DNA from: Bradyrhizobium sp. CCGB12
GTDB lineage: Bacteria; Pseudomonadota; Alphaproteobacteria; Rhizobiales; Xanthobacteraceae
DNA length: 64,000 nucleotides
Assembly: GCF_024199845.1 (NCBI RefSeq)
Contig: NZ_JANADO010000001.1
Location: 930,001-994,000 of the forward strand
Direction of reading: 5' to 3'
Positions 30,299-34,927 of this stretch are shown in pieces. The notes beneath the pieces were generated by a model. That model did no database searches. It saw nothing but the letters and a program-made list of their open reading frames with translations, and was not told the DNA's origin. Each line of letters opens with the position of its first letter. Position 1 is the stretch's first letter. Made by a program: the position numbers and the translations under genes.

Positions 30299-31066
30299 AT
30301 GAAAATCGGCATCAATTCGGACATGGGCGAAGGCTTCGGCAATTATCGCATCTGCGACGACGAGGCGCTGATGAGCATCATTTCGTCGGCCAACGTGGCA
30401 TGCGGTTTCCATGCCGGCGATCCCATCATCATGGATCGCATGGTTCGCCTCGCCAAGCAGAAGGGGGTCGAGGTCGGCGCCCATCCGGGCCTGCCCGACC
30501 TGCTCGGGTTTGGCCGGCGCGTGATCCAGATGGATGCCGCCGAGCTCGAGAAGCACATGGTCTATCAGATCGGCGCCTTGCAGGCGATCGCGGCCAATGC
30601 GGGCCATCGTGTGACCCATGTCAGCTTCCACGCCGCGATGGGCAACATGGTCAATGCCGACCCTGACATGGCCGATGTCGCCGCCCGTGCGATTGCGACC
30701 ATCAATCGCGATTTCATCGTGTTCTCGCAGCCTGACGCCGAGATCGTGCGCGCCGCGCGCAAGGTGGGCCTGCGCATCCTGACGCTGTTCCTGGCTGACC
30801 GCGCCTACGACGAGAACGGCCATCTGGTGTCCCGCAAGCTTCCCAACTCCGTCATCACCTCGACTGACGCGGTGGCCGAGCGGGTCAAGCGCTTCCTCGA
30901 CAGCGGCACTGTGCAGACGATCGAAGGCAAGTCGATCAAGGTCGAGGCGCGCTCGATCCTGATCCACAGCGATACGCCGGGATCGGTCAACCTCGCCGGC
31001 ACGGTGCGCCGCGTGATCGAGCAGGGTGGCGGCGAGGTGACGCCCGCAACCGTCCTGCTCAATTGA
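30299..31066 (+). CDS. pxpA: PxpA-like protein (LamB/YcsF family) with an altered active-site motif
   Basis: A 255-residue LamB/YcsF protein. The N-terminus (INSDMGEGFGNY) and SSANVACGFHAGDP are canonical. The segment that reads VKPHGALYN in typical 5-oxoprolinase PxpA is VSFHAAMGN here (near residue 110), so the lysine and the Gly-x-Leu-Tyr are gone. The second His motif is LIHSD rather than LHGD. ATG 30299 is chosen over a GTG at 30260. It overlaps the convergent BCCP-like gene by 8 bases. It probably hydrolyses a different cyclic amide or related compound than 5-oxoproline (inference). Confidence 0.8.
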   Translation: MKIGINSDMGEGFGNYRICDDEALMSIISSANVACGFHAGDPIIMDRMVRLAKQKGVEVGAHPGLPDLLGFGRRVIQMDAAELEKHMVYQIGALQAIAANAGHRVTHVSFHAAMGNMVNADPDMADVAARAIATINRDFIVFSQPDAEIVRAARKVGLRILTLFLADRAYDENGHLVSRKLPNSVITSTDAVAERVKRFLDSGTVQTIEGKSIKVEARSILIHSDTPGSVNLAGTVRRVIEQGGGEVTPATVLLN

Positions 31067-31484
31067 TCGGGTTGCCCCCAGTATGCGGGCGGATGCGCAC
31101 AATCGGTGTGCCGTAGCCGACCGTTGCGCCAGGCTCCGCGATCACGGCATCGATCGTGCCGGCGGCCGGCGCCACGATGGGCGCATACAAGAGCCCGATC
31201 TTGACGAGGCCGACGATCGCGCCGGCCTCGACGCGCTCGCCCTGTGCGACGAACGGCTTGTCCCGCCAGGGATGAGCCGCAAGGAAATGCCCTGCGACGT
31301 CGGTTTTAGCGATGATGGAATGGTCTGCAGCGGGGGCGGCAAGCATCGGTGACGCCACCATTCGCGGACCCGTGTCGACGACGAGCTTCAGCGATTGGCC
31401 GGGTTCCTCGATTTCGATCGTGTCGACGCCGGACCTTTCGAGGATTTGCGCCAGACGCGCGATATCGGTCAGCTCTATCGGCAT
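31059..31484 (-). CDS. Biotin/lipoyl-carrier-like protein lacking the acceptor lysine
   Basis: A 141-residue protein with the AccB N-terminal pattern (LTDIARLAQILERSGVDTIEIEE) and a C-terminal biotinyl/lipoyl fold (FVAQGERVEAGAIVGL to GYGTPIVRI). Aligning it with the AccB at 34463-34927, the position of the biotinylated lysine in EAMKTF is a leucine in KIGLLY, so it is unlikely to carry biotin. It overlaps the pxpC2 stop region by 10 bases and ends inside the convergent pxpA tail. Perhaps a structural or regulatory member of the complex formed by the accB-accC-pxpB-pxpC set. Confidence 0.75.
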   Translation of the reverse strand: MPIELTDIARLAQILERSGVDTIEIEEPGQSLKLVVDTGPRMVASPMLAAPAADHSIIAKTDVAGHFLAAHPWRDKPFVAQGERVEAGAIVGLVKIGLLYAPIVAPAAGTIDAVIAEPGATVGYGTPIVRIRPHTGGNPIN

Positions 31485-33111: not shown

Positions 33112-34463
33112 GGCGCGGCCACCCGCGCATTCATCCAGTGCTCGAGATGATGGATGTCGTAGCCGCCGCAGCAGAACGTCGGATCGGCGAGGATCGCCTG
33201 ATGCAACGGCACATTGGTTCGGATGCCTTCGGCGCGCAACTCGGACAAGGCGACGCGTGCGCGCGCCAGGGCTTCCTCGCGAGTGCCGCCATGGGCGATG
33301 AGCTTGCCGATCAGCGAATCATAGTGACGGGGAACTATGGCGCCGGCGGCGATATGCGAATCGACGCGGATGCCGATGCCGCCCGGCACGTCCCAGCGCG
33401 TGACCGTGCCGGGCGAGGGCGCGAGGGTGGCGGGGTCTTCGGCATTGATGCGGAATTCGACGGCATGGCCGACACGGGCGATTTCGTCTTGCGCAATGCC
33501 CAGCGCTTCGCCCCGTGCGATGCGTATCTGCTCCTTGACGATGTCGATCCCAGTCGTCATCTCGGTGACGGGATGCTCCACCTGGACGCGCGTGTTCATC
33601 TCGATGAAGAAGAACTGCCCGCCTTCGTAAAGAAATTCGAAGGTGCCGGCGCCGCGATAGCCGATCCGCCGGCAGGCCTCGACGCAGCTTGCGCCCACCT
33701 GCTCGATCAGCGCGCGATCGATGCCGGGCGCGGGGGCTTCTTCGACGACCTTCTGGTTTCTGCGCTGAAGCGAGCAGTCGCGGTCGCCGAGCCAGAGATG
33801 GTTGTCGTGCTGATCGCACAACACCTGGATCTCGATATGGCGAGGTTTTTCGAGGAACTTCTCGATGTAGACCGCAGCGTTTTTGAAGGCCTTGCTGGCT
33901 TCCGCGCGGGTCAACGCAAGCGCCTCGTCCAGCGTGCCTTCGTTGCGTACGATCCGCATGCCACGCCCGCCGCCCCCACCGGCGGCCTTGATGATCACGG
34001 GGTATCCGATGTCTCGCGCGATCGCGCGCACCTCGGCTGGATCATCCGGCAGGGCGCTGTCCGGGCCCGGCACGCAAGGCACGCCCGCGAGCCGCATCGC
34101 GCGCTTGGCCGCGACCTTGTCGCCCATGGTCCGGATACAATCCGCGGACGGGCCGATGAAGGTGAGACCGGCGCGCGCGACCCGATCGGCGAACTCCGCA
34201 CTTTCCGAGAGGAATCCGTAACCCGGGTGGATCGCCTGGGCACCGCTGACTTCGGCTGCGAGCAGGATTGCCGCCACGTTGAGGTAGGTGCTGCTCGCCG
34301 GCGCCGGCCCGATGCACAGTGCCTCATCGGCGAGCGCGACATAGCGCGCGTCGCGGTCCGCCTCCGAGTGAATGACCACCGTCTTGAGACCCATCGCCCG
34401 ACAGGCGCGCTGGATGCGAAGCGCGATCTCGCCGCGATTGGCGATCAGGACCTTGTCGAACAT
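33108..34463 (-). CDS. accC: Biotin carboxylase (AccC-like)
   Basis: A 451-residue biotin carboxylase with NRGEIALRIQRA at the N-terminus, HPGYGFLSE near residue 75, the glycine-rich ATP lid GGGGGRGMRIV near 165, the EAPAPG and EMNTRVQVEHPVTE active-site segment with catalytic Glu/Arg near 290. It carboxylates biotin on the partner AccB using ATP and bicarbonate. No carboxyltransferase genes (accA/accD or pccB) are nearby; the PxpB2/PxpC2 pair takes that place, pointing to an amide-type substrate instead of an acyl-CoA (inference). Confidence 0.9.
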   Translation of the reverse strand: MFDKVLIANRGEIALRIQRACRAMGLKTVVIHSEADRDARYVALADEALCIGPAPASSTYLNVAAILLAAEVSGAQAIHPGYGFLSESAEFADRVARAGLTFIGPSADCIRTMGDKVAAKRAMRLAGVPCVPGPDSALPDDPAEVRAIARDIGYPVIIKAAGGGGGRGMRIVRNEGTLDEALALTRAEASKAFKNAAVYIEKFLEKPRHIEIQVLCDQHDNHLWLGDRDCSLQRRNQKVVEEAPAPGIDRALIEQVGASCVEACRRIGYRGAGTFEFLYEGGQFFFIEMNTRVQVEHPVTEMTTGIDIVKEQIRIARGEALGIAQDEIARVGHAVEFRINAEDPATLAPSPGTVTRWDVPGGIGIRVDSHIAAGAIVPRHYDSLIGKLIAHGGTREEALARARVALSELRAEGIRTNVPLHQAILADPTFCCGGYDIHHLEHWMNARVAAP

Positions 34464-34927
34464 CAGGATGAACCCGCAGGGCCGACCCGGAACAGGGATT
34501 GCCCCGCTTCGATCTCGTCACCGTCCTCCGCGAGGATCGCAAGCACGACGCCGGGTGCCTCGGCGGCGATGTCGATGAAGGTCTTCATCGCTTCGATGAT
34601 GCAGATCTTTTGCCCGGCCTCGATCCGTGCGCCGACCTCGACCAGCGGCGGCTCCTCCGGCGCAGCAGCCCGATAGAAGACGCCGTGCATCGGTGCCGGC
34701 ACGACGATGTCGGCAGTCGCCTCGGGAGCAGAACTTTCCTGGCGATCGAGAGTGGGGGCCTCGACCTTGATCTGGTTTGCAGGCTGTGCCGGGACCGCAG
34801 GCGCTCCTGCAGACGCGCGCTTGAGGATGCGAATGCGGGTGCCGTCCTGGGTGAGGTCCAACTCGGCGATGGAGGAGCGCGTAACGAGATCGACGAGCTG
34901 TTCGATTTTGGAGAGGTCCACGGTCAC
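34463..34927 (-). CDS. accB: Biotin carboxyl carrier protein (AccB-like)
   Basis: A 154-residue carrier protein: N-terminal helix region (IEQLVDLVTRSSIAELDL), an Ala/Pro/Glu-rich linker at about 40-75, and the biotinyl domain with the acceptor lysine in EAMKTF. The start is GTG at 34927 (a second GTG follows two codons later). Its stop overlaps the accC start (TGATG). First gene of the accB-accC-pxpB2-pxpC2-BCCP-like operon. Confidence 0.9.
   Translation of the reverse strand: MTVDLSKIEQLVDLVTRSSIAELDLTQDGTRIRILKRASAGAPAVPAQPANQIKVEAPTLDRQESSAPEATADIVVPAPMHGVFYRAAAPEEPPLVEVGARIEAGQKICIIEAMKTFIDIAAEAPGVVLAILAEDGDEIEAGQSLFRVGPAGSS

Follow-up and report, generated by a model that had tools for sequence, protein, structure and literature searches.

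A biotin carrier paralogue that lacks the biotinyl lysine accompanies a distinct clade of PxpB-PxpC carboxyltransferases in Bradyrhizobium and other bacteria

In a 64,000-nucleotide stretch of the approximately 9.4-Mb genome of Bradyrhizobium sp. CCGB12 (NZ_JANADO010000001.1, positions 930,001 to 994,000; hereafter the window), genes for a biotin carboxyl carrier protein (AccB), a biotin carboxylase (AccC), two PxpB-PxpC pairs and PxpA lie beside a gene for a second, carrier-like protein, BCCP2, which has lost the lysine to which biotin is attached. BCCP2 is under purifying selection and is linked across lineages to one clade of PxpC, here called type A, to which both PxpC proteins of the window belong. 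The composition of the set, the missing lysine, the linkage and the type A clade are established with high confidence. These genes may encode a lactam-opening system in which AccC and AccB feed the PxpB-PxpC (PxpBC) carboxyltransferase (CT), BCCP2 is a non-catalytic subunit and PxpA opens the ring, a reading to which we give an even chance. The first-pass annotation of this DNA had described accB, accC, pxpB2, pxpC2 and a BCCP-like gene as one overlapping minus-strand operon for a second, split urea-carboxylase-like enzyme. The layout holds: the five genes overlap, in that order, by 1, 4, 4 and 10 bases, and the set is indeed a second one, as a pxpB1-pxpC1 pair lies on the plus strand (28594-30263) upstream of pxpA (Table 1). 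The plus-strand pxpA overlaps the 3' end of the BCCP2 gene by 8 bases and is convergent with the minus-strand operon. In agreement with the same annotation, no carboxyltransferase of the AccA, AccD or PccB kind was found among the ten window proteins scanned, the rest of the window not being scanned for these.

AccB has an intact biotinyl lysine in the E-A/S-M-K motif (IIEAMK), and this column is lysine in all 35 aligned type A AccB sequences. In BCCP2, whose lack of this lysine the first-pass annotation had missed, the profile alignment places leucine under the biotinyl lysine. The motif was absent from all of the best 120 of 171 BCCP2 homologues found, and lysine was absent from the aligned column in 38 of 38 BCCP2 sequences, the latter count being partly so by construction. 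A sequence artefact masking the lysine was rejected, since the altered motif is common to close homologues (113/120 by one pattern), as was a shifted biotinyl lysine: the lysine of a KIG motif, which precedes the biotinyl column by three positions, is not conserved in other lineages. BCCP2 scores 42 bits against the BCCP family model (cut-off 115) and aligns over its full length with Escherichia coli BCCP (4hr7), with the BCCP fold and both the N-terminal part and the biotinyl-type domain retained. A broad BCCP2 profile (A2) was rejected as a means of counting BCCP2, as it also matches ordinary AccB (362/398 genomes); EAMK was present in 11 of 14 places picked among its higher-ranking matches, and the other 3 were BCCP2.

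The loss of the lysine might be expected of a decaying pseudo-carrier without function. This is extremely unlikely, given that the median ratio of nonsynonymous to synonymous substitution rates (dN/dS) was 0.24 for BCCP2, as compared to 0.21 for AccB (15 orthologues each) and 0.08 for AccC, and that 54 of 57 distinct BCCP2 sequences share a His-Pro pattern in the thumb region. Furthermore, all 38 aligned BCCP2 sequences lie on the same side of a split supported at 0.997, so that the lysine was probably lost once, long ago, and the loss retained across orders. Judged from these comparisons, BCCP2 forms a family of its own that purifying selection maintains. We recognised no paper on BCCP2, or on AccBC-PxpABC as one enzyme, in full-text searches whose scope left out most subscription journals; priority of the description is not established.

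The linkage was followed in several surveys. In the first, a BCCP2 profile was run against 397 genomes of the order and the 19 best places outside the source genome were fetched. One of these (L021) proved to be a plain accB-accC pair; all of the remaining 18 carry AccB with E-A/S-MK and PxpA, 17 of them with BCCP2 (in L009 the contig ends before its position), and AccC is nearby in 10 and missing in the 8 of family f11. The second survey, which counters the bias of sampling by BCCP2, drew loci by PxpC alone and kept 80 named loci of 99 relatives. The tree placed 21 of these in the type A clade. BCCP2 was present in 21/21 type A loci and in 0/59 others, and the 59 had no carrier of any kind; as the query was a type A PxpC, these 59 are its nearest relatives in reach outside type A, mainly from Burkholderiaceae, and 12 of them had shortened flanks. 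In 20 of 146 Bradyrhizobium genomes, PxpC2 has a counterpart with 45% identity or more (E no worse than 1e-82; next matches E 1e-55), and all 20 carry BCCP2 with AccB, AccC, PxpB, PxpC and PxpA in one locus, the window being that of the source genome (BCCP2 was counted in 18 at E<=1e-12 and seen in two more, L121 and L122). A further survey sampled the whole class through the CT_A_B family, which had matches in 61 of 240 genomes; the 60 loci fetched comprised 1 type A (L081), 15 of a second kind of split set, type B, and 44 without a carrier, so type A is uncommon.

Related sets with changed gene order recur in several families of Rhizobiales, in Burkholderia, in Komagataeibacter/Acetobacter and in Microvirga, and, without accBC, in Pantoea/Erwinia; this linkage across lineages with altered order led us to reject chance co-location. 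Named type A loci include those of Sinorhizobium numidicum, Rhizobium johnstonii, Burkholderia pyrrocinia, Agrobacterium vitis pAt (without AccC) and Bradyrhizobium guangxiense, and that of Bradyrhizobium sp. 62B has the same layout as the window. The recurrence of accB, accC, pxpB and pxpC as a unit supports the first-pass annotation on this point. BCCP2, rather than AccBC, is the steadiest companion of type A PxpBC. One Bradyrhizobium genome with a type A locus (L126) also has a type B set of PxpA, AccB with EVMK, AccC and PxpC.

Type A PxpC formed one clade with support of 0.99 (45 of 110 tips) and, with more tips, of 0.94 (66 of 158); none of the 66 tips comes from a locus without a carrier. 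With fused urea carboxylases as outgroup, the clade nests among canonical PxpC, and type B falls outside it in two groups, one of 13 tips (support 1.0) and the other of L064 and L067, a variant in which the carrier gene (EVMKT) follows pxpC instead of lying beside pxpA. Since re-rooting can shift labels, the quoted supports were also read on unrooted trees, and all held. PxpC stretches shorter than 200 residues were dropped (L093), near-identical loci were kept, and L121-L136 (including L124) were left out. In labelling, two L107 tips were typed A despite an N-terminal QSLK, a false motif also present in L106 and L113; L024, L026 and L028 (BCCP2 without local AccBC) were typed as non-canonical; L070, a short contig with an EIMK carrier and no AccC, was counted as type B; and the EIMK match of L152 lies at the C-terminus and is not a biotin site. 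PxpA was rejected as a marker of type A, as 56 type A PxpA share a tree node with 14 canonical ones.

The two PxpC proteins of the window are 54% identical and belong to different lineages within type A. One group of 18 tips (0.93) unites PxpC1 with sequences of Rhizobium and Pantoea type; another, also of 18 tips (0.95), holds PxpC2 with Burkholderia-type and other sequences. Each lineage occurs elsewhere alone with its own AccB, AccC and BCCP2 (PxpC1-like in L005 and L116; PxpC2-like in L110-L112 and L118). Because both modules here face a single AccB, AccC, BCCP2 and PxpA, the simplest reading is that they share them; that the first set, too, is type A makes its use of AccBC and PxpA probable.

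In the proposed system, AccC would use ATP and bicarbonate to carboxylate AccB-bound biotin. The carboxybiotin would go to the PxpB-PxpC carboxyltransferase, present in two versions (PxpB1C1 and PxpB2C2), activating the amide of an imported lactam, and PxpA would then open the lactam ring. As a dedicated subunit without catalytic function, BCCP2 may dock or gate AccB/AccC on PxpBC. The released amino acid would be transaminated and the keto acid split by an RraA-type aldolase. We hold the biotin-dependent step with moderate confidence because AccC and AccB are intact and because the available entry for PDB 9yx5 lists a biotin-dependent acyl-CoA carboxylase alpha3 subunit together with allophanate hydrolase subunits 1 and 2, which are PxpB/PxpC-like. 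AccC matches E. coli biotin carboxylase at 14 of 14 positions checked, which we take to be the catalytic and binding residues. AccB scores slightly below the TIGR00531 cut-off (114.6 bits against 115.2).

An ordinary 5-oxoprolinase with a spare fatty-acid biotin carboxylase, AccB and AccC working independently, is what the first-pass annotation had set against its own proposal. PxpA, PxpB1 and PxpB2 do pass the cut-offs of 5-oxoprolinase NCBIfam models, and AccC passes that of an acetyl-CoA carboxylase model. This explanation is nevertheless quite unlikely, since a carrier accompanies 21/21 type A loci and none of the 59 others, PxpC1 and PxpC2 score 279 and 295 bits against the PxpC equivalog NF045499 (cut-off 500), the absence of accA and accD products among the proteins scanned is at odds with an acetyl-CoA carboxylase operon, and the genome has a separate accB-accC pair (L039) and a carrier-free pxpA-C-B set (L038) elsewhere.

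Several observations weigh against the proposed biotin-dependent system. Canonical PxpABC opens 5-oxoproline without biotin subunits, as described in the accessible text of PMC8453981 and PMC13274462. In the second survey, AccB and AccC were near only 9 of the 21 type A loci; the other 12, all of Pantoea/Erwinia type with two labelled Enterobacter, had no local AccBC, and this is the chief fact against strict biotin dependence. AccC is missing beside AccB and BCCP2 in the f11 loci examined and on A. vitis pAt. Such loci would need the missing proteins from elsewhere, or no biotin at all. In L124, a plasmid-size Bradyrhizobium contig, a further copy of PxpABC at about 7-12 kb has no carrier nearby; its PxpC falls within the type A range (48%), a TGA interrupts the pxpC frame, and an aminotransferase gene adjoins. 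The same genome is also among the 20 with a complete type A locus. The docking role of BCCP2 is put forward with low confidence, and the structure models made are of single chains.

The CT site tells against the proposal as well. Lys1605 of the K. lactis urea amidolyase (KlUA) is the likely CT general base of urea carboxylase, as proposed in the part of PMC5770610 available. This column is Arg in PxpB1, PxpB2 and 44/44 type A PxpB, Lys in 4/4 fused urea carboxylases and 15/15 type B, and Arg, Lys and Leu in 38, 5 and 2, respectively, of 45 canonical-labelled PxpB. An Arg five residues further on is kept in only 9/44 type A PxpB (missing in 35), as compared to 4/4 fused urea carboxylases, 15/15 type B and 43/45 canonical-labelled PxpB; these counts include many close relatives and do not represent independent events. 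With Arg at the first position and the second Arg usually missing, the type A CT site, as read from the alignment, is not urea-carboxylase-like and is usually also unlike that of canonical PxpBC. An AlphaFold2 single-chain model of PxpC2 was closest to E. coli YbgK (5dud_A, E 5.5e-29), with a weaker fold match to KlUA (5i8i, E 2e-20).

The split urea-carboxylase-like enzyme of the first-pass annotation survives in part. The AccC residues and the AccB site are intact, a separate accB-accC pair exists elsewhere in the genome, and the locus has the parts of urea carboxylase as separate chains; on the other side, the BCCP-like protein lacks the biotin lysine, the CT site has Arg for Lys and the steadiest companion of type A PxpBC is BCCP2 rather than AccBC. 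An N-carboxylase truly of the urea carboxylase type, acting on urea, guanidine, hydantoin or a ureide, is very unlikely, as the proposed base is replaced, the PxpC2 model lies nearer YbgK, no allophanate hydrolase or deiminase was seen among the window proteins family-scanned, and linkage to an aminotransferase and an aldolase implies a carbon skeleton.

A biotin-independent enzyme is the other explanation to be weighed. Type A PxpABC would then work like canonical 5-oxoprolinase, with BCCP2 as a structural subunit of PxpBC and AccB/AccC as an optional add-on or relic. The retention of BCCP2 in the 12 loci without AccB/AccC, the nesting of type A among canonical PxpC and the Arg shared with most canonical-labelled PxpB all fit this explanation, which we consider unlikely. 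Where present, accB and accC look intact and are under purifying selection, the full set is found in all 20 Bradyrhizobium genomes with a type A-range PxpC, and genomes without local accBC presumably have usable housekeeping copies.

The window resembles the PxpABC system of E. coli (YbgJ-YbgK-YbgL) in having PxpA, PxpB and PxpC homologues, in the nearness of PxpC2 to YbgK and in the CT-site Arg. It differs from canonical PxpABC in its separate PxpC clade with BCCP2, in the usually altered CT site and in its aminotransferase, aldolase, short-chain dehydrogenase/reductase (SDR) and LysR partners; the 59 non-type A loci of the second survey lack carrier and carboxylase genes. With urea carboxylase/urea amidolyase (KlUA; 5i8i, 3va7) it shares biotin carboxylase, CT A/B, CT C/D and carrier parts; unlike KlUA, it has separate chains, Arg for Lys1605, an extra carrier without lysine and a PxpA-type partner in place of allophanate hydrolase. 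AccC, PxpC2 and AccB scored 470, 177 and 39 bits against the single-chain urea carboxylase model TIGR02712 (cut-off 1303.85). In Aspergillus nidulans, lactam utilisation by lamA/lamB pairs a fused urea-carboxylase-like protein with a LamB/YcsF protein for the use of 2-pyrrolidinone.

Type B sets (L041, L050 and others) consist of PxpA, a short AccB with E-V/I-MK, AccC, AHS1 and AHS2, and encode biotin carboxylase, carrier, CT and PxpA in genes of their own, as type A does. Unlike type A, they have a urea-carboxylase-like CT site and a single carrier with its lysine, and no BCCP2 was seen in them. An archaeal set from Haladaptatus (L218) joins type B in the tree (0.987). Of the named AHS proteins encountered, the nearest were MSMEG_0435/0436 of M. 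smegmatis (3mml, 9yx5), which does not imply membership of type B; in the available portions of PMC8683493 and PMC11001197, MSMEG_0435 appears only as a table entry, with nothing else on the system. On a plasmid of L. plantarum (L217), the order is pxpB-pxpC-carrier-accC-hydro-lyase-pxpA-NRAMP, with accB/accC beside pxpABC as in the window. The CT site of L217 is Arg-type, as in type A, but its one carrier has EAMK and no BCCP2 occurs in the annotated stretch; its PxpC joins type A, L027 and one more tip at a weak node (0.39). It is possible, from these sequences, that L217, with an Arg-type site and a normal AccB, represents the ancestral state. The putative hydro-lyase between its accC and pxpA and the NRAMP metal transporter after pxpA (10765-13536) may belong to the Bacillota version of the system.

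A gene list with AccBC next to PxpABC has been published before. The available description in PMC11315280 gives a six-gene S. aureus operon that includes pxpB, pxpC, pxpA, accB and accC, an arrangement like that of the window, and counts accBC under fatty acid synthesis. For L. pentosus, the accessible part of PMC12427679 reports an extra BCCP/biotin carboxylase copy and, separately, pxpB/pxpC. Growth of C. glutamicum on 5-oxoproline requires pxpTABC, and the text available for that paper (PMC13274462) contains no accB.

The partner genes of type A are conserved. In the second survey, an aminotransferase and a LysR regulator were each found in 21/21 type A loci and 0/59 others, an SDR in 20/21 and 1/59, and an RraA aldolase in 17/21 and 0/59. 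The Pantoea/Erwinia-type loci (L137-L148) combine BCCP2, type A PxpABC, an aminotransferase and LysR, with no accB/accC nearby, and in Burkholderia pyrrocinia (NZ_CP150851) the type A set shares its run with genes for phosphoenolpyruvate carboxylase and D-glycerate dehydrogenase (L118, 11808-15695). The partners look like a catabolic pathway of import, ring opening, transamination and aldol cleavage. The first-pass annotation had suggested an amide, lactam or ureide imported by the neighbouring transporter; aminotransferase, aldolase and transporter suggest that an imported compound is catabolised, while the aminotransferase and aldolase linkage does not favour urea or guanidine. Since aldolases of the RraA subfamily in question cleave 4-hydroxy-2-oxo acids, our best guess is a 4-hydroxylated 5-oxoproline. 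The broader class, 4-substituted 5-oxoprolines, is the likeliest we can name, although it is a tentative choice that may well be wrong, and the identity of the substrate is held with low confidence.

Around this set (Table 1), the binding protein of the transporter, the only component that was family-scanned, is weakly PotD-like (55 bits; cut-off 582); the permeases and ATPase were named by reading open frames. The two similar SDRs, both with MGFSDYRTALVTGASSGIGAATVRRL, each stand first in one of the convergent half-operons, an arrangement that resembles the outcome of two related operons fusing around a single pxpA. After the RraA aldolase gene lies one for an NHL/beta-propeller protein (37681-38679), possibly a further pathway enzyme; in L120, the RraA neighbour is annotated as a peptidyl-alpha-hydroxyglycine alpha-amidating lyase family protein.

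Table 1. Features of the type A locus and its surroundings, in window coordinates.
Feature	Position	Strand	Basis
SDR oxidoreductase, similar to that at 34969-35781	22308-23108	+	Open frame; likeness by reading
Pyridoxal phosphate-dependent aminotransferase, class I/II, near aspartate transaminase	23089-24303	+	NF004769 522 bits (cut-off 617)
ATP-binding cassette transporter	24471-28455	+	Permeases 24471-25454 and 25415-26257; substrate-binding protein 26264-27349; ATPase 27361-28455
pxpB1 (second PxpB-like subunit, type A)	28594-29289	+	PF02682; TIGR00370 180.1 bits (cut-off 145.55)
pxpC1 (second PxpC-like subunit, type A clade)	29286-30263	+	PF02626; trees
pxpA (LamB/YcsF family ring-opening subunit, putative)	30299-31066	+	PF03746; NF003814 331.7 bits (cut-off 226)
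BCCP2 (BCCP paralogue without biotinyl lysine)	31059-31484	-	VGLVKIGLLYAPI where AccB-type has ..IIEAMKTF..
pxpC2 (CT subunit A/B, PxpC-like, type A)	31475-32452	-	PF02626; trees
pxpB2 (CT subunit C/D, PxpB-like, type A)	32449-33111	-	PF02682; TIGR00370 161.8 bits (cut-off 145.55)
accC (biotin carboxylase)	33108-34463	-	TIGR00514 657 bits (cut-off 626.5)
accB (biotin carboxyl carrier protein)	34463-34927	-	PF00364; biotin site IIEAMK intact
SDR oxidoreductase adjoining accB (start perhaps 35727)	34969-35781	-	PF00106
LysR-type regulator, divergent from SDR/accB operon	35870-36886	+	PF00126/PF03466
RraA-like aldolase (4-carboxy-4-hydroxy-2-oxoadipate aldolase/oxaloacetate decarboxylase)	36951-37655	+	NF006731 219.4 bits (cut-off 179)

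Genes of this kind tend to be annotated singly, as fatty-acid and 5-oxoprolinase genes, as in the available text of PMC11315280 and PMC12427679; in light of the linkage data, one enzyme system is the simpler reading. The labels PxpB and PxpC span at least three groups that differ in CT-site residues and partners. At its boldest, our proposal would make BCCP2 a subunit of a new sort, a protein with the carrier fold but no cofactor site that is indispensable for docking or gating and defines a class of biotin-linked lactamases. In Bradyrhizobium, one biotin carboxylase, carrier, pseudo-carrier and hydrolase would serve two interchangeable CT modules for two related lactams and feed a dedicated transamination and aldolase pathway, and the Pantoea-type pseudo-carrier may recruit a housekeeping carboxylase. 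We regard this extended version as possible, if rather doubtful. The pseudo-carrier allows a clear test of how biotin carriers dock on PxpBC-type carboxyltransferases and whether PxpBC chemistry may use carboxybiotin.

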